Shown: in pieces, positions 1,276 to 61,582 of the stretch
How the letters are laid out: each line of letters opens with the position of its first letter
How positions within the stretch are numbered: position 1 is the first letter of the stretch
Assembly: GCA_001599355.1 (NCBI GenBank)
Contig: BCGQ01000006.1
Location: 682,001-746,000, forward strand
Direction: 5' to 3'
Origin: Nakazawaea peltata
Lineage: Eukaryota; Ascomycota; Pichiomycetes; Alaninales; Pachysolenaceae
DNA length: 64,000 nt
Made by a program: the position numbers and the translations under genes
Notes under the pieces: model-generated
Database searches by the model: none
What the model was told of the DNA's origin: nothing
The model's input: the letters and a program-made list of their open reading frames with translations, nothing else

Positions 1276-4200
1276 ATGTCACAGATCCCTGAAGAGTACC
1301 GCGCTCCTTTAGGAGCCTTGGTGAACCTGTTGGCAGCCGCAGACAACCAGATGCGGTCCCAAGCCGAGAAATCTTTACACTCTGAGTGGGTCAAGAAAGG
1401 CAAGGTGGAAATTATGTTGTTGTATTTGGCGGAGAGAAGTAGTGGCGTTGGAGAGGCGGTCGATGAGGTGCAGAGACTGTTTGCCGCTGTGTTGTTCCGT
1501 AGAATTCTGACCAGGATGCCCGATGGACCGGGCTTCTCGGTCACTCTGAGAGTCATCGACCATATTGAGCCTGCTGTCAAGGAGCAAATCCGTCTGGTTT
1601 TGGGCCAAGGGTTCATGGCTGGAGGGTTGAGTCGTAGTGTGCGCCATAAGATTGCCGATGCGATCTCGGAATGCGCCAAATCCGCTTCGGAATCGGCCTC
1701 CGATTGGCCCCAATTGTTACCGATGTTGTTCGAGGCCACCAAAAGTGGAGACTCGAGTTTCCGTGAGTCGCTGTTCCGTGTCTTTGGAAGCACACCTGAG
1801 TTGATCGACCGTAGTCTCATTGACAACGTGTTGCCGGTGTTCCATGCTGGGTTTGAGGACTCTGACGATGACGTCCGGATCGCTGCTGCTACTGCTTTTG
1901 TAGCTTGTTTCCAACAGCTTCCAAAGAAACTGTGGGCTCAATTGTCGGTTCTTTTACCTTCGTTGCTCAATTCTTTGCCTAGATTGTTGGACAATGGGAA
2001 GGATGACCTGTTACTGTCGGTTTTGGAGTCGTTGATCGAGCTTGTAGAGGTTGCTCCTAAGATGTTCAAGCCGATGTTCGGGACGATCATCGAGTTTTGT
2101 TCAGCCGTAGCTAAGAACAAAGATCTCGATCAGAACACACGTTTGGCCGCTTTGGAATTGGTCGTCTCGTTCGCAGAGAGCTCTCCTAACATGTGTAAAC
2201 GTGAACTGAGTTACTCAGAGAGCGTGGTCGTTGTTACTCTTCAATTGATGACCGAAGTTTCTATCGACGACGACGAACTGAGTGAATGGATCTCTTCTGA
2301 GCAAGTTGACGCCGGTGACGACGATGAAGATGAGCCTGAATATGAGCTGGCTCGTTCAGCTTTGGACCGTGTGTCTCTTAAACTCGGAGGCCAGACTTTA
2401 CTGCTGCCTCTTTTCCAATATTTGCTCTCTATGTGTTATTCTGACCAATGGAGAGAACGTCATGCTGCTTTGATGCTGTTGTCATCACTGCTGGAGGGTT
2501 GTAGAGACTCGTTAATGCCTGAGACCCCGAAAATCCTCGACCTTATCTTACCTTTATTGACCGATCCTCATCCAAGAGTTCAATATGGATGTTGTAATGC
2601 TTTGGGGCAGATTTCTACCGACTTTGCCGACTATATTCAACGTACTGCTGGTGATAGAATTGTCCCACTGCTTGTTTCCAAGTTGACTGGGGATTCGGTG
2701 CCTCGTGTCCAACTGCATGCTGCTGCTCTGCTTGTCAATTTCTCCGAGAATGCTTCCAAAGAGGTCTTGCTGCCATATTTGGACGATTTGTTGACTAATT
2801 TGTTGACTCTTTTACAAGGACCTCATCGTTATGTCCAAGAGCAAGTCTTGACTACCATTCTGATCATCGCCGACAGTGCTCAGCTGACCTTTATCAAGTA
2901 CTACGACACTTTGATGCCGATTTTGATCTCGGTTTTGAAGACCGACATGGGAATGGAGAACAGACTTTTGAAGGCCAAATGTATCGAGTGTTCTACGTTG
3001 ATTGCCCTTGCTGTCGGTAAGACCAAGTTCCAGCCACATGCTGAGGATGTCATTCAATTGTTCGGTCTGCTCCAAGCTCAGCTGGTGGAGGACGACGACC
3101 CAGTCAAGCTGTATTTGCAACAAGGTTGGGGTAGAATTTGTAAGATTGTAGGAACAGATTTTGTACCATTATTGCCAAGTGTATTACCACCATTACTTGA
3201 GGCTGGTAAACTGCAGCAAGATATTTCATTATTGGAGGAGAATGAGGTCGATGAGGTTGGTGCTGATGAGAATTGGGAAGTTATCCAGCTCTCTGGTAAA
3301 CATATTGCTGTTCACACTGCGGTACTTGATGATAAAGTGACTCTGATCGAGTTACTCAAGACTTATGCTGACGTTTTAGAGCTGCAATTCTACGAGTATG
3401 TCGGTGAGATCGCTCAAGATATCGTTCTTCCTCTGCTTGATTTCTATTTACATGACGGAGTTAGAGGATCGGCCCTGTTGTGTATGCCATCGTTGTTGAA
3501 ATGTGCTATATCTCTGGGTCAACAACAGGTTCTGTTACAACTTTGGAATAGCATTGTAGATAAGTTGAGTGATCTGTTACTGAACGAGCCAGTTCCAGAG
3601 TTGTTGGTGCTGTATTACAGTAGTATTATCTCGTGTTTGGAGCTTGTCTCTGCTCCGGGAGTCAACCCATTGACTCCCCAACAACTCGTCACTCTTGCTA
3701 CTGTTATTGAGTCTAATCTTGTCGATATTTATGAGAGAATCAAGAACAGAGAGAATGGAGATGACGATTATGCTGAGGAAACAGAAGATGACGATGACGA
3801 ATTCACCGATGAGGAGATCTTGGATGAGATCAATAAACTGATTTCGGCCATTTTCAAGTCGGCCAAGGCCTCGTTTGTCGAACCTTTCCTGAAACTCGTT
3901 CCTACACTTGCTCGTTATATCAATGACGAGAACACTGCGTTGAAATTATGTGGATTATGTGTAGTTTCGGACTTGATTGAACATGCTGGTGAACATTCTT
4001 ATCATTTCAAGGACTTGTTCTTGCAACAGGTTGGAGATTCGTTGACTTCTCCTCAACTGTCGATCCGTCAAGTGGCTGCTTATGCCGTTGGAGTTGCTCT
4101 GCAATATGGAGGGGCCAATTACTCTCAATTTGCCGTAGCTACTTTGGAGCCTCTTTTCAAGATGGCTACCGTCCCTGATCTGAAACTGGAGGAGAACATA

Positions 4201-4581
4201 ACCGCTACCGAGAATGGTGTCACTGCCATTGCTAAGATCTGTCATTCATATGGATCTTCGTTACCAAACTTGGATCAAATTATTGACAATTGGTTCAAAC
4301 TTTTGCCGGTCTTGAAAGATGATGAGCTGCTGCCTTTTGCCTACAGTTTCCTCGTCGAGTTGATCAATAAACAGCACCCGGTTGTCATGCAACAGATTCC
4401 AAAGGTGGTTGATCACGTCGTCCAACTGTTGACTTACTCAAGCATTGGAGGGAAGACTGCTTCTAAGGTAGTTGAGGCTACTAAGGGATTATTGGGAACA
4501 ATTCCTCAACTGGATCTGGTGCTGTTGTTGTCTAAGTATAGTGCTGAGACTCAAGTTGTCATCCAGAGATGGTTCTCGTGA
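1276..4581 (+). CDS. PSE1: Importin-beta karyopherin Kap121/Pse1
   Basis: The 1101-residue protein is built of HEAT repeats and matches S. cerevisiae Pse1/Kap121 (about 1089 residues) along its whole length. Recognisable blocks are DPHPRVQYGCCNALGQISTDF, FIKYYDTLMP and LDFYLHDGVR. Kap121 carries cargo such as transcription factors through the nuclear pore and releases it on binding Ran-GTP. Two acidic loops are visible, near residues 345-355 and 830-850. CTG codons at residues 245, 247, 376, 377, 401, 405 and 406 all fall on alanines of the S. cerevisiae protein. This is among the best evidence in the window that CTG means Ala. The start is the first ATG and aligns with the family N-terminus. 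In S. cerevisiae PSE1 is next to GAS1; here only PXR1 lies between PSE1 and the first GAS gene. Confidence 0.96.
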   Translation: MSQIPEEYRAPLGALVNLLAAADNQMRSQAEKSLHSEWVKKGKVEIMLLYLAERSSGVGEAVDEVQRLFAAVLFRRILTRMPDGPGFSVTLRVIDHIEPAVKEQIRLVLGQGFMAGGLSRSVRHKIADAISECAKSASESASDWPQLLPMLFEATKSGDSSFRESLFRVFGSTPELIDRSLIDNVLPVFHAGFEDSDDDVRIAAATAFVACFQQLPKKLWAQLSVLLPSLLNSLPRLLDNGKDDLLLSVLESLIELVEVAPKMFKPMFGTIIEFCSAVAKNKDLDQNTRLAALELVVSFAESSPNMCKRELSYSESVVVVTLQLMTEVSIDDDELSEWISSEQVDAGDDDEDEPEYELARSALDRVSLKLGGQTLLLPLFQYLLSMCYSDQWRERHAALMLLSSLLEGCRDSLMPETPKILDLILPLLTDPHPRVQYGCCNALGQISTDFADYIQRTAGDRIVPLLVSKLTGDSVPRVQLHAAALLVNFSENASKEVLLPYLDDLLTNLLTLLQGPHRYVQEQVLTTILIIADSAQLTFIKYYDTLMPILISVLKTDMGMENRLLKAKCIECSTLIALAVGKTKFQPHAEDVIQLFGLLQAQLVEDDDPVKLYLQQGWGRICKIVGTDFVPLLPSVLPPLLEAGKLQQDISLLEENEVDEVGADENWEVIQLSGKHIAVHTAVLDDKVTLIELLKTYADVLELQFYEYVGEIAQDIVLPLLDFYLHDGVRGSALLCMPSLLKCAISLGQQQVLLQLWNSIVDKLSDLLLNEPVPELLVLYYSSIISCLELVSAPGVNPLTPQQLVTLATVIESNLVDIYERIKNRENGDDDYAEETEDDDDEFTDEEILDEINKLISAIFKSAKASFVEPFLKLVPTLARYINDENTALKLCGLCVVSDLIEHAGEHSYHFKDLFLQQVGDSLTSPQLSIRQVAAYAVGVALQYGGANYSQFAVATLEPLFKMATVPDLKLEENITATENGVTAIAKICHSYGSSLPNLDQIIDNWFKLLPVLKDDELLPFAYSFLVELINKQHPVVMQQIPKVVDHVVQLLTYSSIGGKTASKVVEATKGLLGTIPQLDLVLLLSKYSAETQVVIQRWFS

Positions 4582-4628
4582 CTGTATAGTTTAATAGAAT
4601 AAGTGGAGAGGAATGAGTAGGAGGGGTG

Positions 4629-4678
4629 TTTCCTAATTGGGAAATCAAAATTTTCTAAAGAAATTCCCGATTAGGAAA
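4629..4678. promoter_or_regulatory. Pair of Mcm1-like boxes, also an imperfect hairpin
   Basis: TTTCCTAATTGGGAAA (4629-4644) and ATTCCCGATTAGGAAA (4663-4678) each resemble the palindromic Mcm1 P-box, TTTCCTAATTAGGAAA. The two sites are centred 34 bp apart. They are also near-perfect reverse complements of each other, so an RNA copy could fold into a 15-bp hairpin in the PSE1 3' UTR. They lie 48 bp after the PSE1 stop and about 125-175 bp before the PXR1 start. Binding by Mcm1 is inferred from sequence only. Confidence 0.5.
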
Positions 4679-4742
4679 TCCATCGCTGTAAAAAAATGTG
4701 AAAATTTTTTTAAGATGATCTTGTGGCAGTAGATAACCGAGT

Positions 4743-4776: not shown

Positions 4777-4804
4777 GCCAACACATCTCCAATAACTAGA
4801 AATA

Positions 4805-5892: not shown

Positions 5893-7533
5893 TCAAAAAA
5901 TAACGAATGAAGCTCCTCCAATCAAACAAGTAAGTGCCATAGATAACACCAGGAGCTCGGTTGTGGAGACAAACGGTTTAGAAGAAAGAGAAGCAGAACT
6001 CTTTGATGTAGATGTAGAAGAAGAAGTTGAACTGGAACCTGAAGAAGAAGAACTAGAATCTGAATCATCATTCGATCCACTTGAAGAAGCAGATCCGGTC
6101 TCCAGAGAAGATCCGCCGGCATTGGCAGTCAGAGATGACATCAAAGCTGAACACGAAGAAGCAGCACTGGTAGATTTCAAAGAAGCAGATCCGTCGAATG
6201 AACAAGCGTCATCAGAAGAATCTTGGTCAACATAGTACAAGTTGAAAATATAAGACAACTTCTCCTTGTCAGAGCAGAAGGAATAAGCACCATATTCACC
6301 AGAAGTTCCGTTAGCAGTAATATCAGAACAGTCGACTTCGGCACAGGCGAAAGAGTACAAATCAGCATAATCATCTGTATCCACATCAGAGTCTACAACA
6401 CATCCTAAAGACAGGTACATACAGTCACAGACGTCTTGGTTAGGAGTTGGAGGTAAGGTAGTGGCAGCTTCCCAGTCGGCATTAGTCAGAGGACATTTCA
6501 AAGTAGTTGCAGTGGAAGTTACATCTTCGTAAGTAGCAGTAGTTGGAGAGACAGAAGCCAATTCACTCTTCAAATAATTGAAATCATCCAAAGTAGATAC
6601 TGACCCATCGTCAATAGATACCAAACCATATTCGTTGGTTTCTTCGAAATACATGTACACAATACCACCAGACCAAACATCGGTCATATCATCCGAGTAT
6701 AAAGTCAGAACTTCGGTGAAATGTCTTGGTCTTTGAGTGTTACAACCATATTCTGAGAAGAAGATTGGTTTGGAAAGGTTAGCAAATTCCTCAGTTCTGG
6801 CCTTGTATCCGGATTCCTCAAAAGTGGAGTTACCACACCACTCATACATGTTAATACCATAGAAGTCAGCAGCGACATCTTCGTCACCACAGACAAAGTA
6901 GTCAGCACTGTATACACGGGTGTCAGAGTCATCATTGGCAGAGTATCCAATTGGGATAGCACGGTATCCTTGGTCAGACATGTATTGTTTCATATCACGG
7001 ATCAGAGCCTTAACAAATGGAGCAGCATCAGAAGTGGTGGTGTTAGTAATGACCTCATTACCGGCGAAGAATCCCAAAACGTTGTCATAGTTTTGGAACA
7101 TGTCAATCACTTGAGTGTAGCGCTCATATAAATCAATAGTCCAAGATGGGTCAGTAGTAATAATGGAGTCACCAGGTTCAGACAAATCCAGGATGACATA
7201 AATTCCGGCATCAGCAAGCAGGTTCATACAATCGTCATGATCCAACGAGGCATTGACAGCATAAACACGGATGACGTTGGTTCCCAACTCTTGTAAGTAT
7301 GGGATATCACGAGAACAAGTATCCATATCCAGTAATGGGTCGGTGAATGTGGTGTCAGTGGAGTTGGAGACATCCTGTTGGTAAGCGACACCTTTGATAT
7401 AGAATTGGGATCCGTTGTTGGAATAGAAGAATTTGTTACCTCCAACCTCAATAGTTGGGGTATCAGCCGAGGCAGTAGCAGCCAGAGTGGCAATGGAAAC
7501 TGCAACGCTCGATAAAATACTTGATAAAAACAT
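5893..7533 (-). CDS. GPI-anchored 1,3-beta-glucanosyltransferase, GH72 (GAS1-like, copy 1)
   Basis: The 546-residue protein belongs to the GH72+ subfamily, which cuts and rejoins beta-1,3-glucan in the cell wall. A signal peptide covers about residues 1-23. The catalytic domain follows, with the two expected glutamates at E160 (AGNEV) and E261 (FFSEYG), almost the S. cerevisiae Gas1 numbering (161/262). A cysteine-rich X8/CBM43 module lies around residues 365-465. A serine-rich stretch and a hydrophobic tail suit a GPI signal. The frame stays open to 7602, but the ATG at 7533 gives a proper signal peptide and a TATA box lies just behind it. CTG at residue 177 sits where the family has Ala (KAAIRD). 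It is a tandem paralogue of the next gene. I assign family, not strict GAS1 orthology. Confidence 0.95.
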
Positions 7534-7605
7534 AGTAACGAATGAATGGGTGATGTAGTTTGGGGGGTTAGTGAAAATTTTGGATTCCCGAAGAAATTTC
7601 AACCT

Positions 7606-7615
7606 TTATATATAG
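7606..7615 (-). promoter_or_regulatory. TATA box of GAS1-like copy 1
   Basis: The minus strand reads ACTATATATAAAGG here, about 73-82 bp upstream of the chosen ATG at 7533. The spacing supports that start over the longer open frame reaching 7602. Confidence 0.6.
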
Positions 7616-8282
7616 TTTGAGGTGCAAGTGGGCTGTAATTTTCTCCAAACGCGACATGATTGGAAATAAACAAAGTTTCAATGTCGCACCATGATCCGAA
7701 TCCTCTCCATCTTGCCCTGCTGTCAATAGGAGCCCCCTGGTTAATTGTCTGATCTGCTAGTGTACCCCCTTCTTTGCGTCACCTCTCTTATCGGGAAGAC
7801 AATAGTGCTGAGTGCGTGAAAAATTACGTCATGAGGAAATGGGGGTTAGGGTCTGGAATTTTTGGGGGGCTTGAAAGGGAAGGGACTAGTGAAGACGAGG
7901 GGGTATACTGGGGTAGGCCAGGGATTTGCTGGGGGTGAGAAAGTCTGACGATCACTAGGTGATTGCCAATGGAGATATACGAAGTGAGTGATAAGGAAAG
8001 TGGTGCAATAGGTGGCTTGGTGAGTCTCTCTGCTTGGCTCGCCAAGATGCCCATCCGAATTCTAGGCGTAGGCGTGAGTTTTCGAGGAGCTGTCTATCAA
8101 TATAAAAGAAGGTCTATTTTCCACATTCGACCCCTGAACACTACAGACGGCTTAGATGTTGGTTCAATAGTCCAAAATGCATACCTTAGCAGCAATTATA
8201 AACTAAAGAATGCCTCTGATTGATGGTGTCTGAGCATAAAAAGAAAAGACCCCCAAGAGACGCACCTGTCTTATCTGGAAAT

Positions 8283-8309
8283 GGGCATATTCTGCAGGAA
8301 AATATGCCC
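8283..8309. repeat. 9-bp perfect inverted repeat (possible hairpin)
   Basis: GGGCATATT (8283-8291) and AATATGCCC (8301-8309) are exact reverse complements around a 9-base loop. It lies about 90-115 bases beyond the stop of GAS1-like copy 2, so it could be a 3' UTR hairpin or a dyad protein-binding site. Confidence 0.6.
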
Positions 8310-8332
8310 CAGCCCTTGGCTAGTACCTCGGA

Positions 8333-8342
8333 GTCACGTGAC
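8333..8342. promoter_or_regulatory. Cbf1-like palindrome GTCACGTGAC
   Basis: This 10-bp palindrome contains the RTCACGTG core bound by Cbf1-type bHLH factors. It lies between the two GAS genes. The same 10-mer recurs at 43685-43694 upstream of HIT1. Confidence 0.45.
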
Positions 8343-8396
8343 CAAAATCAGGATTATAAGAAAATGGATATTTATTTCAGTCTAATATATAGTTGC

Positions 8397-10007
8397 TTAC
8401 ATGGCAAAAGTCAAACCTACCAAGATAGTGGCAGAGAAGATCAAAGTCATGGTCAATTCACTGACAGAAGACAGGTACTTCTTGGAGTTCAAAGAAGAAG
8501 CACCAGATTTTGAAGATGAAGCGGAAGAAGTGGAGGAAGAGTCGGAACCAGAAGAAGTCTTAGTCGAAGACTTGGTAGAAGACTTGGTGGAAGTCTTCTT
8601 AGCAGCACCGGAACCAGAAGCATTACAAGAAGAGGAAGAAGCATGTTTGTTGATAGAAGCGGAACCATCGAAGGAACAAGCATCGGCAGAGTTGTCTTGG
8701 TCTTCGTAGTACAAACTCAACAAGTAGTTCAATTGAATCTTGGAGTCACAGAAGGAGTAATCACCGTAATCACCAGTGGTACCGTTAGTGGAGACACCAG
8801 AACAGTCGACAACACCACACAAGTAAGAGAACAAATCGGCATAGTCATCTTCATCGACATCATCGGCAACAACACAAGAACTAGAAGACTCAACACAGTC
8901 ACAGAAGTCGGAATCTGGAGTTGGTGGTAATTCAGTAGAAGCTTCCCAATAAACGTTCTCCAGAGGACAAGAGAAAGTGGCAGCAGAAGTGGAGACGGCA
9001 GCAGCAGTGGCAGAAGTTGGGTCAATGCTGGCAATCTCGGACTTCAAGTAGTTGAAATCGGCCAAAGTGGAGACAGAACCGTCGTCCAAAATGGAAACCA
9101 AACCGTAATCATTGGTGGTTTGGAAGTACATGTAAACAATACCACCAGACCAGACATCGGTCATCTCATCAGAGTACAAAGTCAGAACCTCAGTGAATTT
9201 ACGAGGTTGAACAGTGTTACAACCATACTCGGAGAAGAAGACAGGGATAGTCAAGTTGGAGAATTCCTCAGTTCTGGCCTCGTAACCAGAAGTCTTGAAA
9301 GATGAGGATCCACACCACTCGTACATGTTAATACCATAGAAATCAGCAGCGACATCGTCATCACCACAATTGAAATAATCGGCACTGAAGACACGAGTCT
9401 CGGAATCATCGTTAGCAGAGTAACCGACTGGAATGGCACGATATCCTTGGTCAGAAATGTATTGTTTCATGTCACGGATCAGAGCCTTAACGAATGGAGC
9501 AGCATCAGAAGTAGAAGAGTTGGTAATGACCTCATTACCAGCGAAGAAACCCAAGACATTGTCGTAGTTTTGGAACATATCAATGACCTCGGTGTAACGG
9601 TTATACAATTCGACGTTCCAATCTGGGCTGGAAGTGTCAATAGCGAGAGTTGGCTCGGCCAAATCCAGAATAACATAAATTCCGGCATCGGCAAGCTGGT
9701 TCATACAGTCGTCGTGGTTCAACGAGGAGTTGACGGCGTAAACACGGACGACATTGGTACCCAATTCTTGTAAGTAAGGGATGTCACGAGAACAGGAGTC
9801 GCTGTCCAGCAACGGATCGGTGAAACTCGAGTCGGTAGAGTTGGAAACATCTTGTTGATAAGCGATTCCCTTGATGTAAAATTGGGATCCGTTGTTGGAG
9901 TAGAAGAACTTGTTACCAACGATTTCGATGGTTGGGACGTCATCGGCTCTGACGACGGACACGATGGCCAGGGCGGCAGCTGCGATCACGGATTTGGAGA
10001 ACAACAT
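8397..10007 (-). CDS. GAS1: GPI-anchored 1,3-beta-glucanosyltransferase, GH72 (GAS1-like, copy 2)
   Basis: The 536-residue protein has the same architecture as its neighbour: signal peptide (residues 1 to about 21), GH72 catalytic domain with E159 (AGNEV) and E260 (FFSEYG), X8/CBM43 cysteine module, a Ser/Thr/Lys-rich stretch and a hydrophobic GPI-attachment tail. It would elongate cell-wall beta-1,3-glucan at the outer face of the plasma membrane. The start was moved from the open-frame edge at 10055 to the ATG at 10007, which begins a typical signal peptide with a TATAAA about 55 bp upstream. Its codons look more biased (TTC, AAC, GTC, GCC) than those of copy 1, suggesting that this is the highly expressed GAS1 and copy 1 the duplicate. 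That ranking is inference. Confidence 0.95.
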
Positions 10008-12523: not shown

Positions 12524-15500
12524 ATGTCATCGGCGTCCTCAGACAAGCCAGTCACTGGCCCTACCGGCAGTGACGGAGCAAGCGAGGTCTCCGACTCGTC
12601 TGGTAAAAAATCTCACCAAGGCGCCTTGGTCAAAGATGAAGAGCGTGTGAACGAGACCGATTTGATGGTTCAGAAGAGATTGCTTACGCCTTTGATGGGC
12701 AAAGCGGTGCCTCCAATCCCAACTGAAGATGAAAGAAAGTCGTACGGTTCACTTAGAGCCAATTTCATCACCTCAATGTTCTTCTGGTGGTTACATCCGA
12801 TCATGAAGGTGGGCTACAAGAGAACTTTACAACCGGCAGATCTTTGGTACGTGGATGGACCGTTGAAAATTGACTATTATTACCTGAAATTTCAAGAGAA
12901 ATTGGAACTGCAGATCGCTGGTCCTCGTCTGGAACATATCAAGATAGTTGAAAAGAAGAAACTGGAGGGTACTTACAACTCTGAAGACGATGACGAGTTT
13001 GAATACCCAAAATATACGCTTCTCTGGGCACTTGTGCATACATTTTTATGGGAATATTCGTTGGCTTTGGCTCTTAACTGTATTGCCAATGTCTCTTTTG
13101 TCTTGAATCCTTTGCTTAGTAAACTGTTAATCAATTTTGTCTCGGAACTGGCTGCTGATGAAGCCATTGGAATCGATCCTCATATGGCCAAAGGTATTGG
13201 ATACCTGGTTGGTACTTCACTCATGGTCATAACTGGTGGTATGTTGCTTAATCACTTCATGTATCGTTCTATGATGGTTGGTGCCAAAGTTAAACTGGTT
13301 TTGACCCGTCTGATGCTCGAAAAATCGCTTAAACTTAACGCTAAAGGTCGTCATAAGTTCCCTCTGGGTAAGATTACCTCCATCATGGGTACCGATTTGG
13401 CTCGTATCGATTTACTGATTGGTTTCTTACCATTTGGTATATGTTTCCCTGTCCCAGTTATCATCGCTATCGCCTTACTTGTCGTCAATATCGGTGTAGC
13501 TTCTTTAGCAGGTATTGGAGTCTTCCTCGTGCTGCTTGTTGGAATTGGAACCACTGCAAAATCGTTATTTTCTTTCAGAAAGCTGCTGATTGTCTTCACC
13601 GATGCTCGTGTCTCGTATATGAAGGAACTTTTGAACAATTTGAAGATCATTAAGTACTATTCTTGGGAGGATTCTTACGATAAAACCATTTCTGATACCA
13701 GAAATAAAGAGATGTCTGTTATTCGTAAAATGCAATTTGTTCGTGCCGGTCTTACTGCCGTGGCAATCACCTTATCTCAAGTATCCTCCATGGTTGCTTT
13801 CCTTGTCATGTTTGCCATGAAAGGACTGAGATCTGCTGCTGATATCTTCTCTTCTATTTCTTATTTCAATCTTTTACTGCAACAAATGATGATGGTCCCA
13901 TTGACTTTGGCTACCAGTTCGGATGCCTGGATTGGAGTCACTCGTGTTACTCAGTTACTTCAGTGTGGAGAGATCAATACTGAAGAGCTGCTGCTGGTTC
14001 ATTCTGATATTCTGGACTTGCTTAAAGAGGGCATTGCTGTCAGATTGGATGATCTGAGTTTTGAATGGAAGGTATTTGAATTAGATGAGCAAGAGAAGGA
14101 GGATTTGGAGAAGGAGAAGAAGAAGGGGGCTCTTCTGGATAAGGAGGATCTGATAGTTGATGCTGAGAAGTCTGCTAGTCCTATGGGAGGAGCTGTTGTG
14201 AATGAAAAGAGGGAGGAGATCAAGGATGCCGAGGGTAAGACCGAGGGTAAGACCGAGGAGAACTCCGAGGGTAAGACCGAGGAGAACTCCGAGGGTGCCG
14301 AGGGTAGAACCTTCCCCGGTCTTAAAAATATCTCCCTTGATATCCAATCCGGTGAATTCGTAGTCATCACAGGTCTTATCGGATCCGGAAAATCCTCTCT
14401 TTTGAACGCAATGGCCGGTTTCATGCACAAATTATCAGGTTCCGTCAAAGTCTCCGGAGAACTTTTGCTTTGTGGCCAACCTTGGATTCAAAATGCCACC
14501 GTAAAAGACAATATCCTCTTTGGAATGACCTACGATAAGAAGAAATACGACTCCGTGATCAAAGCCTGTTCTCTTGAAGCCGATCTCGACCTTCTTCCAG
14601 CAGGAGATCACACTGAAATCGGTGAAAGAGGTATCACGTTATCTGGAGGACAAAAACTGAGAATTAGTTTGGCTCGTGCCGTCTATAATGACCCAGATAT
14701 CATCCTTCTTGATGATGTTCTCTCGGCCGTTGATGCTAGAGTCGGTAAACATATCATGAACGAATGTATCATGGGACTTCTCAAGGATAAGACCAGAATT
14801 TTGGCTACTCATCAATTGTCATTGATCGGAGATGCTGATAGAGTCATTTTCCTCAATGGAGATGGAACAATTAGTGTTGGAACTACCAAAGAATTGATCC
14901 AATCCAATGAAGGATTCAATAATTTGATGTCGTACAATCTGGAGTCTAAAGATGACGAGGAAGAGGAGAAGAAACTTGAGGAAATTCAGCTCGAAGACCA
15001 TGAACTTATTCGTAAACAAACTACTACAGCTGAAGGTGAGGAAGATGACGGTCATTTGATGGTAGCTGAAGAGCGTGCCGTCAACAGAATCTCATCCAAA
15101 GTGTACAAAACTTATATCAAAATGGGATCTGGAGTATTTGGACCTTTGCTGATTCCAGTCTTCGCTGTATCTGTTGTTCTTACCACTTATTGCCAACTTT
15201 TCACCAATGTTTGGTTATCCTTCTGGTCCGATTACAAGTTTGGAGTTCGTACTCAAGCATTCTATATGGGAATTTACGGTATGTTCACCCTGTTGACTAT
15301 TGTTTTCGCCTTTATTCAATTCTTGTTAATGGTTTATCTCACTAATTCTGCTCTGAGAAAGTTGAATATTCTGCTGGTAAGTCGTCTTTTGCGTCTGCCA
15401 ATGCTGTTCATGGATACTACTCCAATGGGTCGTATTTTAAACCGTTTCACCAAGGATACCGATTCTCTTGATAACGAAATCAGTGAACAATTGAGATTAC

Positions 15501-16879
15501 TTATCTATCCACTGCTGAATATTGCTGGTGTTATCATTTTGTGTATCATTTACTTGCCATGGTTTGCAATTGCCGTTCCATTTTTACTGTTCCTGTTCGT
15601 TGCTATCTCCAGTTTGTACCAACTGTCTGGTCGTGAGATTAAGAGATTGGAAGCCGTTCAAAGATCCTTCGTTTACAATAATTTCAACGAAACTTTGAGT
15701 GGAACTGCAACTATTAAGCTGTATCGTCTGGAGAACAGGTTCTTGGAGAAGAATAACATGTTGATCGACCACATGAATGAGCTGTATTTCATCACAATTG
15801 CGAATCAAAGATGGTTACTGATACATCTTGATATGGTAGCTACAGTTTTGTGTCTTGTCATTGGTTTATTGAGTGTTTATCGTGAGTTCAGTATTTCTGC
15901 TTCATCTACCGGTTTATTACTTTCGTATGTCCTTCAAATTGCCGGTCAATTATCGCTTTTGATTCGTTCCTTGACTCAAGTTGAAAATGAAATGAACTCC
16001 GTAGAGAGATTGTGTCATTATCTGTTTGAGTTGGATCAAGAACTGGCCTTTGAGATTTCAGAGACCAAACCTGCTCCAGAATGGCCTCAAGATGGTGCTA
16101 TTGAATTCCGTAACGTAAGTCTCGCCTACAGACCTGGATTGCCATTGGTATTGAAGAATTTGGATATCGATATCAAGCCAGGTGAAAAAATCGGTATTTG
16201 TGGACGTACCGGAGCTGGTAAATCCTCGATCATGACCGCTTTGTACCGTCTTAGTGAGTTGGACCAAGGTCAAATGATCATCGATGGTGTAGATATCAGT
16301 AAAATTGGATTGCATGACTTGAGATCCAAACTTTCTATTATTCCTCAAGATCCGGTCTTATTCAAGGGGTCGATCCGTAAGAATTTAGATCCATTTGGTC
16401 AATATTCCGATGATCATTTATGGAAAGCCTTACATAAATCGAGTTTGATCGATGATATCGAGCTGGTGAAGAAAGAGACCGGCGATGACCTTCATAAATT
16501 CCATTTGAATCAAACCGTAGAGGAAGAAGGAAGCAATTTCTCTCTTGGAGAGAGACAATTGATTGCTTTGACCAGAGCCGTGGTTCGTGATTCCAAGATT
16601 TTGATCTTGGATGAGGCTACTTCTTCGGTCGATTATGAGACCGATGCTAAGATCCAAAGCACCATTGTCAAGGAGTTCAGTCATTGTACCATTCTTTGTA
16701 TTGCTCATAGATTGAAGACTATTCTTAATTACGACAGAATTTTGGTCTTGGATCAAGGAAGTGTTAAGGAATTCGATACCCCACGTTCCTTGTTTGCACT
16801 CAAGGATGGAATATTCCGTTCTATGTGTGATAGATCTAATATTGTTGAGGAGGATTTTGATGCTGTTGGAGCTAAATAG
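12524..16879 (+). CDS. YOR1: ABCC-family multidrug transporter Yor1
   Basis: The 1451-residue full transporter (S. cerevisiae Yor1 about 1477) is ordered TMD1-NBD1-TMD2-NBD2 with no extra N-terminal membrane domain, as in Yor1. NBD1 has Walker A GLIGSGKSS (617-625), a signature from residue 706 that reads LSGGQKARISLARA when CTG712 is Ala, and Walker B ending in LLDDVLSAVD. NBD2 has Walker A GRTGAGKSS (1227-1235) and Walker B ILILDEATSSVD, but its signature is SLGERQ. Yor1 exports oligomycin and other organic anions across the plasma membrane at the cost of ATP. The linker before NBD1 (about residues 505-595) is highly charged and holds an 8-residue tandem repeat. The upstream region carries many candidate regulator sites. 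In S. cerevisiae PXR1 is its neighbour. Confidence 0.96.
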   Translation: MSSASSDKPVTGPTGSDGASEVSDSSGKKSHQGALVKDEERVNETDLMVQKRLLTPLMGKAVPPIPTEDERKSYGSLRANFITSMFFWWLHPIMKVGYKRTLQPADLWYVDGPLKIDYYYLKFQEKLELQIAGPRLEHIKIVEKKKLEGTYNSEDDDEFEYPKYTLLWALVHTFLWEYSLALALNCIANVSFVLNPLLSKLLINFVSELAADEAIGIDPHMAKGIGYLVGTSLMVITGGMLLNHFMYRSMMVGAKVKLVLTRLMLEKSLKLNAKGRHKFPLGKITSIMGTDLARIDLLIGFLPFGICFPVPVIIAIALLVVNIGVASLAGIGVFLVLLVGIGTTAKSLFSFRKLLIVFTDARVSYMKELLNNLKIIKYYSWEDSYDKTISDTRNKEMSVIRKMQFVRAGLTAVAITLSQVSSMVAFLVMFAMKGLRSAADIFSSISYFNLLLQQMMMVPLTLATSSDAWIGVTRVTQLLQCGEINTEELLLVHSDILDLLKEGIAVRLDDLSFEWKVFELDEQEKEDLEKEKKKGALLDKEDLIVDAEKSASPMGGAVVNEKREEIKDAEGKTEGKTEENSEGKTEENSEGAEGRTFPGLKNISLDIQSGEFVVITGLIGSGKSSLLNAMAGFMHKLSGSVKVSGELLLCGQPWIQNATVKDNILFGMTYDKKKYDSVIKACSLEADLDLLPAGDHTEIGERGITLSGGQKLRISLARAVYNDPDIILLDDVLSAVDARVGKHIMNECIMGLLKDKTRILATHQLSLIGDADRVIFLNGDGTISVGTTKELIQSNEGFNNLMSYNLESKDDEEEEKKLEEIQLEDHELIRKQTTTAEGEEDDGHLMVAEERAVNRISSKVYKTYIKMGSGVFGPLLIPVFAVSVVLTTYCQLFTNVWLSFWSDYKFGVRTQAFYMGIYGMFTLLTIVFAFIQFLLMVYLTNSALRKLNILLVSRLLRLPMLFMDTTPMGRILNRFTKDTDSLDNEISEQLRLLIYPLLNIAGVIILCIIYLPWFAIAVPFLLFLFVAISSLYQLSGREIKRLEAVQRSFVYNNFNETLSGTATIKLYRLENRFLEKNNMLIDHMNELYFITIANQRWLLIHLDMVATVLCLVIGLLSVYREFSISASSTGLLLSYVLQIAGQLSLLIRSLTQVENEMNSVERLCHYLFELDQELAFEISETKPAPEWPQDGAIEFRNVSLAYRPGLPLVLKNLDIDIKPGEKIGICGRTGAGKSSIMTALYRLSELDQGQMIIDGVDISKIGLHDLRSKLSIIPQDPVLFKGSIRKNLDPFGQYSDDHLWKALHKSSLIDDIELVKKETGDDLHKFHLNQTVEEEGSNFSLGERQLIALTRAVVRDSKILILDEATSSVDYETDAKIQSTIVKEFSHCTILCIAHRLKTILNYDRILVLDQGSVKEFDTPRSLFALKDGIFRSMCDRSNIVEEDFDAVGAK
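14238..14310 (+). repeat. In-frame tandem repeat in the YOR1 linker
   Basis: Units of GAGGGTAAGACC and GAGGAGAACTCC alternate here, encoding EGKTEENS twice plus partial copies in the regulatory linker of Yor1. Such in-frame repeats can change length between strains. Confidence 0.7.
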
Positions 16880-18315: not shown

Positions 18316-18316
18316 A

Positions 18317-51181: not shown

Positions 51182-53533
51182 ATGTCGGACAAAATCACAC
51201 GTTCTATCTTCACCGCCATAGATGCTGGATCCTTCGATTTGGCCAAGACTTTATGCGACCAACAGCTCAAAAAGTACCCCAACACAAGCTACTTCTACGC
51301 TTTAAAGCTGTATGTTTTAGTTCTTAATGGAGAGACTCAGTCCCTGGTCAAACAGGCAGATTCTTTACTGTCCAAAACTCCAAGTGATCCTAATCTGTTG
51401 GAGTTGCTCCACATAGTATACCGCCGTCTGGGTTTATTCAAGCAGAGCGTCCTCTGTTACGAGAATGCTTGCAAAAAGTACCCATCTTTGGCGTTAGCTG
51501 AGTCCTGGTTTGAGCTCAGTGTCAAGAATTTGGACATCTCCTCATTACAGAAGGCAAGTCTGATGGTCTACAAACAATCTGGACCAGATTCCAGACCAGC
51601 AAAGTTACAATATCTGTTCAATTTATTACTTCTGACTAACGATGAATCTTCCACGACTATTCAGAAGAAGTTATTCCCCAAATTGGGGCTGAAATTGTTA
51701 GAGGACCTCCAGTTAAACAACTCCCAAGAGGTTTATTTGTATGTCAAGTTACTCTTAGCGATCGGAGGAGACGAAGAAAGACTGAAACTGAAGCTGAAAC
51801 TAGTCCAGTTTTTGTCCTCAGAATTTGATTTGGAATTACAGATAATCTTGCTCGATTTACTTCACGAGACCGAGAATTGGTCCGAGTTACATGATTTCTC
51901 AAGTAAGATCGTGTTCGAGAACAAGTTTGATGACTGGGATACCTGGTGTTTATACTTAAAATCTCGACTTGAGGTGGGTAAAATCGATCAACAATCGAAT
52001 CAAGAAATTGAAGAGGAAATTTGTAGCAAAGTCACTCAATTGAATACCCAAACCGGATACCCAAGTAGAAATTCACACTTAATAGTGCTTGAATTGTTCT
52101 TCAGAACAAATAATAACCCCAAATTCAACCATTTCCTCCAACAATATATCAAATCTTTCGGTGATAAATCTTGCTGTTTTATTGACTTGAAAAAGTACAA
52201 AAGTTGTATTGAACTTTCTCAATTGACTGAGTATTTGGAGATCGAAAAGATCGAGAAACTCTCCCAGAACGAGATATCCGTCAAATCAGCCACATCCTTA
52301 GTCAATTATCAACGTTTCCAGCTCTTATTTGACTCCGACACTCCAAAGGTTATGAGCACCAACCTCAAATATTTTGAGCTCACAAAACACTTGACTAAAT
52401 CGAAATTGAAGACCGATTATTTCATTGGGAATGAGTTCATTCTCATGAATGTGCAATTGATCTTGAAAGACCATCCAATCGACACTCAATCTCTCATTAA
52501 ATGTGCCATTATGTTAGAAGAATATCTGAAAATTGACCACCATGAGTTCCATACCAGGTTAGTTTTGGTTGCAATTTACATCAGATTGAACTGCTTCACC
52601 AAGGCAAAGTTCCATTACGATATTTTGAAGATCAGGTTCATCCAAACGGACACTTTATCCTACTTCCTCTTAAGTAAAATCGGACAAATTTGTCCTAACT
52701 CTTCCGCTTTAGAAGAGCTCCAAAAACTGCAGTCAATCTACAAAAATAACACCAGAGAAACCACCTACTTCATCAAGGAGGCATATGACAAGCTGACATT
52801 CACCAAGATCCTTGGGTTTATCGAGTTCGGGATCCGTTTACGTGACTCTATCTCCAGGTACTTAAACTCTGTAGAAATGATCAAGATCCAGAGAATCTCA
52901 GGCCAATCTCCCGACCTGGAAATCTCAGTTTTGACTTCAGGTTACGGTGTAAAGTTCAGAGACAATCGAGATTTCACTACAGTATGGGATTTTGGTACTT
53001 TTGGTGGAAATGAAGGTAATTCCTTACTTAACGATCACTGCTACGAATCTCCATCTAATTACGTGGAGTTAATGATCGCCAAAGAGCTTCTTATTTCCAA
53101 TGACACCTCCAAATGTCAATTGAGTCTGTGTGTAGATAAGATAAGACAATCCAAGGTGGATTACAAGACCGAGTCATGGCAATTGGGCTTGATCGCTGGA
53201 TTGGTGGAGCAAATTAAAGAGAAATCAACGGTTTCTCCAGCTGAAATCTCTCAGATTCCTCTGGTTCAATCTATAAATGATCTGTTCATCTTATTGGAGA
53301 CTCTGAAATGTCTTAATAGTCTTAAGATGAGCTACAAATCGGAGATGGACTCCAAATTGAATAAAGAGATCACTCTTCTTAGTAAGAAATTGGTTGAGAT
53401 GGTCAAAGAGGGTGATTATAAACTGGAATTGGAGATTGGAAGTGACTTCACATCTCCAATCACCAAAGATATCTTACAAGATATCAAAGAATCAAGAACT
53501 GAACTGATAAAAATCATCAAAAGACTACAATAA
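51182..53533 (+). CDS. MDM20: NatB auxiliary subunit Mdm20 (Naa25)
   Basis: The 783-residue all-helical protein (S. cerevisiae Mdm20 796) starts with TPR-like repeats: FDLAKTLCDQQLKKYPNTSYFYALKLYVL, then ESWFELSVKNLDISSLQKASLMVYKQ. It continues with less conserved helices to the end. Mdm20 anchors the catalytic subunit Nat3 to the ribosome. NatB acetylates N-termini beginning Met-Glu, Met-Asp, Met-Asn or Met-Gln, including actin and tropomyosin. The ATG is the first in frame and the N-terminal sequence fits the family. The stop is followed after 34 bp by the convergent LSB1/PIN3-like gene. Confidence 0.9.
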   Translation: MSDKITRSIFTAIDAGSFDLAKTLCDQQLKKYPNTSYFYALKLYVLVLNGETQSLVKQADSLLSKTPSDPNLLELLHIVYRRLGLFKQSVLCYENACKKYPSLALAESWFELSVKNLDISSLQKASLMVYKQSGPDSRPAKLQYLFNLLLLTNDESSTTIQKKLFPKLGLKLLEDLQLNNSQEVYLYVKLLLAIGGDEERLKLKLKLVQFLSSEFDLELQIILLDLLHETENWSELHDFSSKIVFENKFDDWDTWCLYLKSRLEVGKIDQQSNQEIEEEICSKVTQLNTQTGYPSRNSHLIVLELFFRTNNNPKFNHFLQQYIKSFGDKSCCFIDLKKYKSCIELSQLTEYLEIEKIEKLSQNEISVKSATSLVNYQRFQLLFDSDTPKVMSTNLKYFELTKHLTKSKLKTDYFIGNEFILMNVQLILKDHPIDTQSLIKCAIMLEEYLKIDHHEFHTRLVLVAIYIRLNCFTKAKFHYDILKIRFIQTDTLSYFLLSKIGQICPNSSALEELQKLQSIYKNNTRETTYFIKEAYDKLTFTKILGFIEFGIRLRDSISRYLNSVEMIKIQRISGQSPDLEISVLTSGYGVKFRDNRDFTTVWDFGTFGGNEGNSLLNDHCYESPSNYVELMIAKELLISNDTSKCQLSLCVDKIRQSKVDYKTESWQLGLIAGLVEQIKEKSTVSPAEISQIPLVQSINDLFILLETLKCLNSLKMSYKSEMDSKLNKEITLLSKKLVEMVKEGDYKLELEIGSDFTSPITKDILQDIKESRTELIKIIKRLQ

Positions 53534-55623: not shown

Positions 55624-57243
55624 ATGAGCTCCGACATCGAATCTATCCTGTCCGACGTCCACAACACACACCTGAACTTACAGCGCCCTCCAGAACTGTT
55701 AAACGAAAAGCTGACAGCTAAAGCTTCATCCACATCTGACGACGAATTTTATGATGATACGACTTTAGAACCATCCTCAAGGGTGGCTTCTTATAGTAAC
55801 ATCGACGAGAAGAAACTTCTCCGCAAGATCGACTTCAATTTGATGCCAATGCTTCTGTTATTATATTTACTTTGTTTCTTGGATCGTGGAAATATTGGTA
55901 ACGCTAAGATTGAAGGGTTGTCTGAAGACTTGGGGTTGACCGATGAAGAGTACAAGATTTCTTTGACTGTATTTTTCTTAACTTATGCATTTTCGGAGAT
56001 TCCATCTAATATTTTATTCAAATATTTCCACCGCCCTAGTTTGTTCATCCCTACTATTATGGTATTATGGGGGATCAATACTATGTGTCTTGGATTTGTT
56101 CAGAATTATCATGGTTTGGTAGTTGCAAGATTGACTTTGGGTATTGCCGAGCTGGGATTCTACCCTGGTGTTGTTTTTTACCTTACAAAATGGTACTGTT
56201 CTCATGAAATTCAACTTCGTCAGACTTTATTCTTCCTGTCACTGTCTATGGCTGGTGCTTTCTCCGGATTGTTACTGTATCTGATTGCTAAGATGGACGG
56301 TGTTGGAGGTTACGAAGGTTGGAGATGGATTTTCATTTTGGAAGGTTTGGCTACACTGGTAGTTCTGTTTACTTCTTACTTCATTCTTCATGATTATCCT
56401 GAGACCCTGAAATTTTTGACAGCTGAAGAGAAGGAATTTGTTTTAAACCGTATTCTGAATTATAATTCAAGTGCCGGTGAATTGGGTGAGGATGTAAAGA
56501 GTTTGGGTGCCAGTACTCTTCTGCTGAAAGAGGAGACTCATCACCGTAAGAAGTACATTATCCAACTGTTCAAGGATTGGCAAATTTATTTCCAATTATT
56601 AACTTATTATGGTATTTGTGTGCCATTATACCTGATTTCGCTTTTCCTTCCTACAATCATCAATAATTTAGGCTACACTACCCTGAAACTGCAACTTTTG
56701 ACCATTCCAATCTACGTTACTCTGTGTCTGATGTCAATTTTGACACTGTACTTGAGTGACCGCACTGGTTTGAGATCACCATTTATCCTTGGGGGTTACT
56801 GTTTAATGCTTATCGGATTCATTATGCTGGTACTGGCCGACCTGAAGACAATGCCAGGAGTGGTTTATGCAGGTGTCTACATTGTTCTGCTCGGGATTTA
56901 TCCACTGTTCCCAGGAGCTGTTACCTGGTGTTCTAATAATTTAGCAGGAGAATACAAAAGAGCAGTTGGTTCTCTGTTCCAAATTGGTTTAGGTAATTTG
57001 AGTGGTGCTTACAGTTCCAACTTCTACAGACTGGTGGACTCTCCTCAATACACTATGGGTCATTGTCTCTGTATCGGTTTCATTGCCATGGGAACAATCT
57101 CTACTATCATTTTGATAATCGGATATTCCAGAAGCAATACAAAGAAGAAGGCTGACCTTCTGAGTGGAAAATACGATTCATACAGTCATGTCCAATTATT
57201 AGAAATGGGGGACAAGAGTCCTTACTTCAAGTATAGATTGTAA
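55624..57243 (+). CDS. MFS permease of the DAL5/TNA1 anion:cation symporter family
   Basis: The protein has 539 residues with an acidic cytosolic N-terminus of about 65 residues followed by 12 predicted membrane spans in two groups of six. The family motif LLYLLCFLDRGNIGNAKIEGL is at span 1, then SEIPSNILFK, RLTLGIAELGFYPGVVFYLTKWY and the loop GGYEGWRWIFILEGLATL. This family carries small organic anions with protons across the plasma membrane: allantoate (Dal5), nicotinate (Tna1), pantothenate (Fen2), biotin (Vht1). I cannot assign the substrate. The length and sequence feel closest to Tna1-like proteins, without certainty. A TATA box and possible GATA sites suggest regulated expression. Confidence 0.9.
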   Translation: MSSDIESILSDVHNTHLNLQRPPELLNEKLTAKASSTSDDEFYDDTTLEPSSRVASYSNIDEKKLLRKIDFNLMPMLLLLYLLCFLDRGNIGNAKIEGLSEDLGLTDEEYKISLTVFFLTYAFSEIPSNILFKYFHRPSLFIPTIMVLWGINTMCLGFVQNYHGLVVARLTLGIAELGFYPGVVFYLTKWYCSHEIQLRQTLFFLSLSMAGAFSGLLLYLIAKMDGVGGYEGWRWIFILEGLATLVVLFTSYFILHDYPETLKFLTAEEKEFVLNRILNYNSSAGELGEDVKSLGASTLLLKEETHHRKKYIIQLFKDWQIYFQLLTYYGICVPLYLISLFLPTIINNLGYTTLKLQLLTIPIYVTLCLMSILTLYLSDRTGLRSPFILGGYCLMLIGFIMLVLADLKTMPGVVYAGVYIVLLGIYPLFPGAVTWCSNNLAGEYKRAVGSLFQIGLGNLSGAYSSNFYRLVDSPQYTMGHCLCIGFIAMGTISTIILIIGYSRSNTKKKADLLSGKYDSYSHVQLLEMGDKSPYFKYRL

Positions 57244-58120: not shown

Positions 58121-58630
58121 ATGTTGTCCATTGGTGATTTGACTTTAAGAGGTGTCAACTTTGTCTTCCTCGTTATTATCTTGGGTTTGACCGGTTCTTT
58201 GGCCGCCACCACCGTTACTCAATCTAACCCACAGGTCAACTTTGCCATCTTTGCCGCTGTCTTTGGTTTATTGTTCTCCAGTTTCTACGGTGTATTGGCT
58301 TCTTTCATCTCCGTTTTGGCTTGGCCAGTTATTTTGACCACTTTGGAATTCTTGAACGTTGTCTTCACTTTGGCTGCCGCTGCTCTGTTGGCCACTCTGA
58401 TTAGAGTTCACTCTTGTACCGATGAGGACTACTTGGATGACAACAACGTTGCTCAAGGTTCTACTGACAGATGTAGAAAGGCTCAACTGAGTACCCTGTT
58501 CTTGTTCTTCAGTTTCTTCATCTTCTTGTTCGGATTTGGTTTCCAAATCATCTCCATCTTCAAGAACGGTCCATTCGGTTACTCCGGCTCCAAGCTGTCC
58601 CTGGGTGTCCCAACTGTTTCCCAAGTCTAA
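58121..58630 (+). CDS. NCE102: Eisosome MARVEL protein Nce102
   Basis: The protein has 169 residues (S. cerevisiae Nce102 173) with four membrane spans of the MARVEL fold. Between spans 3 and 4 it carries IRVHSCTDEDYLDDNNVAQGSTDRCRKAQ, matching the family loop, and it ends GVPTVSQV (GVPTISQV in S. cerevisiae). Nce102 sits in plasma-membrane eisosomes (MCC domains), senses sphingolipid level and restrains Pkh kinases. Codons are strongly biased toward C-ending forms, as expected for an abundant protein. CTG at residues 123 and 126 falls on alanines of the S. cerevisiae protein. S. cerevisiae has a paralogue pair, NCE102/FHN1, from genome duplication; here one gene represents both, next to PHB1. 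Confidence 0.96.
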   Translation: MLSIGDLTLRGVNFVFLVIILGLTGSLAATTVTQSNPQVNFAIFAAVFGLLFSSFYGVLASFISVLAWPVILTTLEFLNVVFTLAAAALLATLIRVHSCTDEDYLDDNNVAQGSTDRCRKAQLSTLFLFFSFFIFLFGFGFQIISIFKNGPFGYSGSKLSLGVPTVSQV

Positions 58631-59379: not shown

Positions 59380-60283
59380 TTAACGACCCAAGTTCAACAA
59401 CAAAGAGTTCTTAGAGCCCTCACCAGCAGCAGAACCTCCGGCACCAGATGGCAAATAGGTGACATTGTTAGATTGCAGCAATGTTTGGGCAATCTCCTTA
59501 GAAGCTTCGATTCTTCTGATCAACAATAAACCATCACCATTCTTCAGTAACAGTCTAGAGATATGATCAGCCAGCTCAGCTTCACCTTCAGCACGAATAA
59601 CACTCAGTTGTCTTTCTTGTTCCAGCTTCTCGACAAGATACTTCAGTCTTTCGGCATCTTGTTGCAGAATTTGCTTTTGTTCAACAGCCTTTGTGAACTC
59701 ACGACCAAAAGTCATATGGGTGATAGAGACATCTTCCAATTTGATATTGAACTCTTGCAGTCTCGACAGCAATTCTCGACGAATCTTAGAAGATACAATC
59801 TCACGTTGAGTAATCAACTCCAGCAGATCATATTGCAGTACAATCGATTTCAAAACCTCATTACCAATGGATGGCAAAACTCTCTCATCATAATCTTGAC
59901 CCAAATGTTGATAGATATTTGGTAATTGTTGGATCTCCGGTCTATGTAATACACGTAAAGTTAACGAAACTTGTTGTAAATCCTTCGATCCAGTAACAGT
60001 GGTGATATTACGGGGTCTGGTTCTTACATCAAACACAATCAGTCTTTGAAGCCAAGGAATCAAGAAATGAGTTCCTTCTCCAACAACAGTTTGCTTAACA
60101 CCTTCGAAACGATCAAAGATAACCAGACGAGATCCACCACGAACATCATACATGATATATGGCATGGCGGCAACTCCGACACCAATTGGGATTGCAATTC
60201 CTAAAAATTGTTAGTATTCAACGCCATTAAATACCCATTTTCCATCTCAACTTACTCGACAAATAATCAATAGCTCTAGACAT
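59380..60283 (-). CDS. PHB1: Prohibitin 1, one intron
   Basis: Exon 1 is 60256-60283 (nine codons plus one base) and exon 2 is 59380-60200. The spliced protein has 282 residues (S. cerevisiae Phb1 287), with N-terminus MSRAIDYLSRIAIPIGVGVAAMPY; codon 10 is split. The body matches Phb1: MYDVRGGSRLVIFDR, VVGEGTHFLIPWLQ, VSLTLRVLHRPE, YDERVLPSIGNEVLKSIV, KLEDVSITHMTFG, SVIRAEGEAE and a SLLLNLGR end. Phb1 and Phb2 form ring complexes in the mitochondrial inner membrane that stabilise membrane proteins. At least seven CTG codons fall on alanines of S. cerevisiae Phb1, for instance in DAERA, VEKAEQERQA and YDAAELITQR. A GTGGCAAAAA element lies about 90 bp upstream and may be an Rpn4-like site. Confidence 0.97.
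60201..60255 (-). other. PHB1 intron (55 nt)
   Basis: The 5' site is GTAAGT, the branch box TACTAAC (60210-60216), and the 3' site TAG, 9 nt after it. The intron is phase 1. Confidence 0.93.
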
Positions 60284-60565
60284 CTTGATTTACACTCTTA
60301 TAATACACTTATTATAGTTAATGAATAATAGATGAACTCACTTCAAGCTGGTTTAAATTAAAGCGCCCTCAGTTGTGGCAAAAAGAGAGGAAATTTTCTT
60401 GGGGAATGAGAATTTGTACAACATACACGACTTTTAATACTAGGAGCTTAGATTTGGATGAGATGATGAGACGATGAGTGGATGAGTTGAGGACGATGAG
60501 CCGGGTCGATGAGTTGTTGAGTTGACCTCCACATCACTACACTAATCACAATTTAATCAATTTAT

Positions 60566-61582
60566 TTAATCTTCAGATTCTTCAATAATTCCAGATTCCT
60601 TAATTAACAGTTCAATCTCCAGTAAAGACCAAATCTTAATGGCAATCTTTCCATTCTCTCTCTTGGAGATAGTGGCGAATTCAATCTTATCACTTGCCAA
60701 CTTAGAAGAGTCCATAGTCTTACTTAATACTTTCAACAGCAAGTTTTGCAGATCCTTCAATTCCATATCATCTTTGTAATCCTGCTTCAATAAGGTCTGC
60801 AGAGAAGCATTGTTAGCACCAATACTGGTCAGTTTCCATCCAGAATAGTTACCAGATGGGTTAGATGTGTACAATTGGAAATCAAAACGATCATCAAAAC
60901 CAGCATACAAGAAAGAAACACCAAATGGTCTCAAACCACCATGTTGTGTATAACCTTGCTTAACGTCACAAATACGACGTACCAATTGTTCACATGGGAT
61001 CTCTTCATTATATGTTTTGAGGAACTGTTGACCAGTCAATCTAGCATGGTTAACAAGAATAGACAGATCGGCATTCATACCGGCAACACAACACACCATA
61101 TTGCTATAAATAGTTAGTAAGACATTCTTTTTTAAAATTCTCTCTATTAAACAACTTACTCATTAAGAATGTACATCTTTTCAGCACTAGTATCTTGCTC
61201 TAACAACTTGGAAGTGACTTTCTTCTCAGCTGCTAAGACGACACCATCCTTCAGCAATATTCCAATGGCTGTTCCCGCATGAGAAATCAGCTCCAACAGG
61301 TATTCAACCTAAACCATAGTTAGTATATTGGATCAGTAGTAAGAGGGCGGGTAACTGGAGACAATCAAGTCCGTCGACGATCTGAAACATCACCTTTGAA
61401 CGTATCTTACAAACAATCCGAAAAACAATCCACCATTTCTAACCCAACGTCTCCCCAAATTGTCCCCCAGCTACCCCTTCTCTTCTCTCCGCGTGTTTGC
61501 CACTCCTTCTCATAATACTTACCTGATGTAATCTACCCTCAGGGGAGAATATCGTTGTCCTACTATCGTATCTTCTAGACAT
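60566..61582 (-). CDS. PRE9: 20S proteasome subunit alpha 3 (Pre9), two introns
   Basis: Exons are 61523-61582, 61160-61308 and 60566-61103. The spliced protein has 248 residues (S. cerevisiae Pre9 258). It begins [36 protein letters not shown], the alpha-type signature across the first junction, and continues through [23 protein letters not shown] and [14 protein letters not shown] to [10 protein letters not shown]. Without splicing the first 70 residues would be lost. Pre9 is the only alpha subunit dispensable in S. cerevisiae and helps gate the core particle. CTG in VEY-CTG-L matches alanine. No PACE box is seen between the PRE9 and URN1 starts. A one-mismatch copy (AGTGGCAAA) lies inside intron 1 at 61496-61504. 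Confidence 0.97.
61104..61159 (-). other. PRE9 intron 2 (56 nt)
   Basis: The 5' site is GTAAGT, the branch box TACTAAC (61113-61119), and the 3' site TAG, 9 nt after it. It splits an Asp codon (GA|C). Confidence 0.94.
61309..61522 (-). other. PRE9 intron 1 (214 nt)
   Basis: The 5' site is GTAAGT, the branch box TACTAAC (61319-61325), and the 3' site TAG, 10 nt after it. The intron is phase 0 after Gln20. It is about four times as long as most introns here and contains a near-PACE element. Confidence 0.94.

Follow-up and report, generated by a model that had tools for sequence, protein, structure and literature searches.

The locus

The stretch of DNA analysed here, referred to below as the window, is a 64,000 nt segment (G000:C6:682001-746000) of the 11.63 Mb, 11-contig genome of the yeast Nakazawaea peltata. 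NCBI taxonomy places Nakazawaea and Peterozyma in the order Alaninales, family Pachysolenaceae. The window contributed 26 genes to the codon counts; of the 28 open frames initially taken, two were dropped because they overlapped a frame on the other strand. The subject of this work is the codon CTG (CUG in the mRNA), which the initial annotation had proposed to be read as alanine. Each of the 26 genes contains at least three CTG codons, in keeping with the earlier remark that the standard code would mistranslate nearly every gene here, and a standard annotation would place the wrong residue at 450 of their 15891 codons. It is virtually certain that nuclear genes of this yeast are read by NCBI translation table 26, in which CUG is alanine, and that this code operates through one tRNA with the anticodon CAG and a G3-U70 pair, the former leucine tRNA with this anticodon apparently being gone.

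The genes that supply most of the protein evidence are importin beta-3 (PSE1) and prohibitin (PHB1), at opposite ends of the window (Table 1). The CTG codons that the initial annotation had cited are all present, namely those at 2008-2016, 2401-2406 and 2476-2493 on the plus strand, at 59605-59646 and 61297-61299 on the minus strand, and those at residues 123 and 126 of NCE102, residue 712 of the YOR1-like transporter and residue 177 of the GAS-type copy at 5893-7533.

Table 1. Features of the window that bear on the meaning of CTG
Feature	Position in window	Strand	Remarks
PSE1 (importin beta-3)	1276..4581	+	48 CTG codons; main test gene
GAS-type glucanosyltransferase copy	5893..7533	-	CTG at residue 177; Pfam Glyco_hydro_72
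Second GAS-type copy	8397..10007	-	CTG at residue 176
YOR1-like ABC transporter	12524..16879	+	44 CTG codons; Pfam ABC_membrane, ABC_tran
MFS transporter	55624..57243	+	31 CTG codons; Pfam MFS_1
NCE102-like protein	58121..58630	+	CTG at residues 89, 93, 123, 126, 159, 161
PHB1 (prohibitin)	59380..60165	-	15 CTG codons; second test gene
PRE9 (proteasome alpha-3), last exon	60566..61099	-	7 CTG codons; solved-structure alignment
CTG codon in PRE9 upstream exon, context VEY-CTG-LE	61297..61299	-	codon seen in sequence

Residues facing CTG in conserved proteins

PSE1 and PHB1 were translated with CTG masked, and each was aligned to 37 homologues hand-picked from the species-named ones among the 120 matches listed. 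Pachysolen was deliberately excluded, and the other named homologues, mostly strains of Saccharomyces, were omitted as redundant. Log-odds were then summed for every codon and amino acid. Over the 63 CTG columns alanine scored +94.8 nats, serine -51.8, glycine -123.3 and leucine -172.0, a lead for alanine of 146.6 nats over serine and of 267 nats over leucine. By residue frequency alanine ranks first in 44 of the 63 columns and leucine in none, so that the columns are dominated by alanine and not by leucine or serine, as the initial annotation had anticipated. Taken separately, PSE1 has alanine as the commonest residue in 30 of its 48 CTG columns and leucine in none, and PHB1 has alanine in 13 of 15 and serine in two (133 and 198); at PHB1 column 207 alanine is the single commonest residue, in 13 of the 37 homologues. 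The match of CTG to alanine in the two proteins is far above chance.

All other codons with more than three test columns have their meaning in the standard code. Among the sense codons present, AGG, CGA, GCA and TGC, with one to three columns each, fall outside this statement, and CTA has no column; the profile test leaves the meaning of these five codons undecided. CTT, CTC, TTA and TTG all score as leucine; for TTA, TTG and CTT the initial annotation had already noted leucine positions. The division is sharpest at strongly conserved sites: the 73 columns with at least 80% alanine carry CTG in 32 cases and GCN in 37, whereas the 111 columns with at least 80% leucine carry CTG in none and CTT, CTC, TTA or TTG in 101. 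Relative to GCN, CTG shows no shift away from conserved columns (Fisher p 0.25, 0.48 and 1.0 at 80, 90 and 95% alanine).

Alignments to proteins of solved structure, again with CTG masked, agree with the profile test. The PSE1 alignments, which end near residue 971, show that solved importin beta-3 chains read GKDDALAS, LAAPLF and MALSSAAEGC in the three contexts for which alanine had been proposed. All three CTG codons of PHB1 at 59605-59646 stand opposite alanine in the four alignments shown, as claimed, and the best chain for the last exon of PRE9 has alanine opposite five of seven CTG codons, glutamine opposite one and aspartate opposite one. For the YOR1-like transporter the structures aligned are those of more distant ABCC proteins, and these alignments do not enter the tally. 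Three CCT genes outside the window, of the CCT3 type (contig C2), CCT6 type (C8) and CCT2 type (C4), have CTG facing alanine at 7 of 8, 3 of 4 and 1 of 3 positions; pooled, 11 of 15 CTG codons face alanine, and the rest face glutamine, proline, methionine or valine, with leucine at none.

Translation of CTG as alanine, serine or leucine also changes the score against Pfam models. The scores in this order are 553.1, 548.8 and 544.1 for the CCT gene on C8 and 552.4, 546.0 and 531.3 for that on C2. In the window they are 192.5, 190.6 and 182.8 for ABC_membrane of the YOR1-like transporter, 128.7, 122.1 and 115.2 for MFS_1 of the MFS transporter, and 471.7, 466.6 and 468.2 for Glyco_hydro_72 of the GAS-type copy at 5893..7533.

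A few observations on these genes stand apart from the test. The two GAS-type copies are adjacent on the minus strand (5893-10007) and have CTG at corresponding positions, residues 177 and 176. PRE9 (60566-61582) apparently consists of three exons and two introns, as judged from the frames only.

The tRNA with anticodon CAG and its neighbours in the tRNA set

A tRNA gene with the anticodon CAG lies outside the window, at G000:C4:81426-81498, and is single copy by DNA search of the genome. It has G3-U70, A73 and G37, and its five-base variable loop, AGGTC, is the same as in the tRNA-Ala of this genome. It scores 50.9 bits against the Rfam tRNA model and is followed by a run of T. G3-U70 is an established alanine identity determinant of tRNA; the initial annotation had pointed to this pair as the sign of alanine identity, and it is found here together with a short variable loop. 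The tRNA-Leu and tRNA-Ser genes that were recovered have long variable arms, unlike the CAG tRNA. A similarity search with the genome's tRNA-Ala and a D-arm pattern did not recover the CAG tRNA; a pattern from the anticodon to the T arm did.

The recovered tRNA-Leu genes have the anticodons UAA, CAA, AAG and UAG, the last (L105, G000:C4:803500-805600) with a 120-base intron and initially labelled by ARAGORN as tRNA-Ser. A tRNA-Leu(CAG) was not found by two exact-match patterns across the genome; the first of these gave 73 matches, of which 35 were scanned with ARAGORN and the remainder judged by eye. The tRNA-Ala genes recovered, at least four with AGC and at least two with UGC, are all on contig C9. 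Since 63 of 608 candidates were scored in the Rfam tRNA search, the set of tRNA genes is not complete and every gene count is a lower bound.

The CAG tRNA has a mosaic-like appearance when set against 20 other tRNAs, less than the full set. Its acceptor arm, variable loop and T arm are nearer to tRNA-Ala(AGC), matching it at 11 of 15, 5 of 5 and 14 of 17 positions, against 9, 4 and 12 for tRNA-Val(UAC); its D and anticodon arms are nearer to tRNA-Val(UAC), at 12 of 12 and 9 of 14 positions, against 9 and 6 for tRNA-Ala(AGC). An origin from tRNA-Val is not claimed: the totals tie at 47 of 65 positions for both, and pairs of different type in a background of 180 tRNA pairs reach 48 matching positions. 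A U6-U67 mismatch in the CAG tRNA was also rejected as a Val-specific sign, as it occurs in tRNA-Ala too. A pattern search of the genome for tRNA-Val gave five matches of the AAC type, two of them confirmed as AAC genes, and one UAC; none of its matches was tRNA-Val(CAC). ARAGORN also calls a tRNA-Val in the window at 53191-53283, within the long frame 51182-53533; this call is probably false.

AlaRS and SerRS, the alanyl- and seryl-tRNA synthetases, need no particular anticodon bases (PMC5951914). The CAG tRNA would be charged with alanine and would read CUG because G3-U70 is recognised by AlaRS irrespective of the anticodon, and alanine would then be inserted at CUG nearly exclusively. The leucine tRNA with the anticodon CAG may have been lost before or during capture of the codon, with CUG spreading later into conserved alanine sites, and loss of CUA may have been a means of holding down the amount of the competing tRNA-Leu(UAG).

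Points against the assignment and alternative readings

Several observations weigh against the assignment of CUG to alanine. In the other 19 CTG columns of PSE1 and PHB1 the commonest residue is glycine, aspartate, histidine, glutamine, threonine, serine, asparagine, proline, glutamate, lysine or valine, and six of the 46 CTG columns with one residue at 60% or more are conserved for a residue other than alanine. Not all protein domains discriminate: ABC_tran of the YOR1-like transporter scores 167.1 with alanine, 167.1 with serine and 164.6 with leucine, giving no separation of alanine and serine, the two are tied for the X8 domain in the window, and the CCT gene on C4, with three CTG codons, scores 521.8, 521.2 and 522.5, leucine being 0.7 bit ahead of alanine. 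The CAG tRNA is undetected by the Rfam search with the default filter, plain minimum-energy folding does not give it a cloverleaf (z 0.15), and it has the U6-U67 mismatch, which is shared with the genome's tRNA-Ala.

The alternative that survives best is that CUG is ambiguous, read mostly as alanine with a measurable minor share of leucine, either through wobble reading by tRNA-Leu(UAG) or through mischarging of the CAG tRNA by LeuRS, the leucyl-tRNA synthetase. The tRNA-Leu(UAG) exists and could compete with the alanine tRNA, and the CAG tRNA has both G37 and A73; G37 is held to cause 3% leucine charging of the serine CAG tRNA of Candida albicans (PMC5951914). One published analysis proposed 10% leucine at CUG in Pachysolen, which PMC8645108 calls mistaken, citing more than 99% alanine at CUG in that yeast. 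Much leucine would be harmful at the 32 of 73 columns with at least 80% alanine that carry CTG, and the depletion of CTA described below would allow tRNA-Leu(UAG) to be scarce. Ambiguity at a measurable level is accordingly considered improbable. A serine meaning, as in the CUG-Ser yeasts (NCBI table 12), draws on the second place of serine in the profile test, which is as expected for alanine sites; it is contradicted by the deficit of 146.6 nats and by a CAG tRNA without the long variable arm that the tRNA-Ser genes of this genome have, and is extremely unlikely. The standard code, with CTG as leucine, has in its favour the single CCT gene on C4 and is less credible still, given the deficit of 267 nats, the complete absence of CTG from the 111 strong leucine columns, 101 of which other leucine codons fill, and the failure of both genome patterns to find a tRNA-Leu(CAG).

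Usage of CTG and CTA

The code itself is not new, reassignment of CUG to alanine having already been published. The less expected aspect is the abundance of CTG and its presence at conserved sites, although a first report of high usage is not claimed. In the 26 window genes CTG makes up 36% of the alanine codons and is the commonest of them, with 450 codons ahead of GCT with 416. A second set comprised 115 open frames outside the window, each 250 codons or longer, taken from loci around tRNA genes and pattern matches, and thus non-random and unverified as genes; here CTG accounts for 1098 of 49856 codons, or 32% of alanine codons, and GCT for 1133. The overall frequency of CTG in the two sets is 0.022-0.028 of codons. 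For comparison, a 2018 paper calls CUG relatively rare and located at unimportant sites in recoded clades (PMC5951914), and the mean CUG frequency in three GAL genes of recoded species is 0.003-0.006 (PMC8084343).

CTG is less favoured in the most codon-biased genes. An EF-1 alpha-like gene (L129, with eight masked bases) lacks CTG altogether and uses 33 GCN codons; in the three CCT genes together the counts are 15 CTG and 96 GCN. Codon bias was computed for 143 frames with at least 10 alanine codons, with weights derived from the EF-1 alpha-like gene, which is among these frames. The mean CTG share is 0.236 in the top quartile of bias and 0.336 to 0.385 in the others, and share and bias are negatively correlated (Spearman -0.27, p 0.001, n=143 frames). 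CTA is strongly depleted, with 32 of 15891 codons in the window genes and 91 of 49856 in the outside frames. Neither this depletion nor the abundance of CTG figured in the initial annotation.

These findings make it likely that the captured codon has moved in this lineage from a marginal to a mainstream role: CUG is at or near the top of the alanine codons and fills invariant alanine positions no less readily than GCN; a single tRNA gene serves it, and it is avoided chiefly in the genes with the strongest codon bias. If true, this departs from the published picture of CUG as rare and confined to unimportant sites after reassignment. An exchange between GCN and CUG needs at least two substitutions and passes through a non-alanine intermediate, so that many paired changes would then be recorded at constrained sites. 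Valine was considered as a visible intermediate and rejected: in columns with at least 50% alanine its frequency in the homologues is 0.0068 at CTG and 0.0095 at GCN (p 0.72; n 40 and 54). An abundant reassigned codon at invariant sites allows questions to be asked about the spread of a captured codon, its intermediates and the selection acting on it, and the same genome raises the question of why CUA depletion runs parallel in alanine and serine clades. Reassignment of a sense codon in a nuclear code is very rare.

Comparison with known systems

Among the 120 matches listed for PSE1 the best has 71% identity and the best species-named one is Pachysolen tannophilus, with 66%; among the 120 matches listed for PHB1 the best is Pachysolen tannophilus, with 81% identity. 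By these identities the yeast is distinct from Pachysolen tannophilus. The closest PSE1 relative among them (71%) has leucine at columns 971, 1018 and 1051, where other homologues mostly have alanine, and may be another CUG-Ala yeast translated by the standard code. Nine further homologues among the 120 listed have one leucine each at strong alanine columns. The code and the position of Pachysolen tannophilus as closest named relative in two protein searches argue for the membership in the CUG-Ala group that had been proposed. That this code is known from Pachysolen, Nakazawaea and Peterozyma, as also stated at the outset, agrees with PMC5951914, which places all three in the CUG-Ala clade.

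Like these yeasts (PMC5951914), Nakazawaea peltata reads CUG as alanine and has an alanine-type tRNA with the anticodon CAG. Unlike the recoded clades as PMC5951914 describes them, with CUG relatively rare, it uses CUG commonly and at conserved sites. With the CUG-Ser1 and CUG-Ser2 yeasts (Candida albicans; Ascoidea and Saccharomycopsis) it shares reassignment of CUG through a new tRNA with the anticodon CAG, but the amino acid is alanine and the tRNA body has a short variable loop and G3-U70 and is not that of a tRNA-Ser. It also shares with the CUG-Ser clades the depletion of CUA, reported in an analysis from which five CUG-Ala species were removed (PMC6701816). A shift of leucine-box codons to alanine is found as well in the mitochondria of Ashbya (PMC3874161), where the codons concerned are CUU and CUA and the code is mitochondrial, whereas here the codon is CUG and the code is nuclear.

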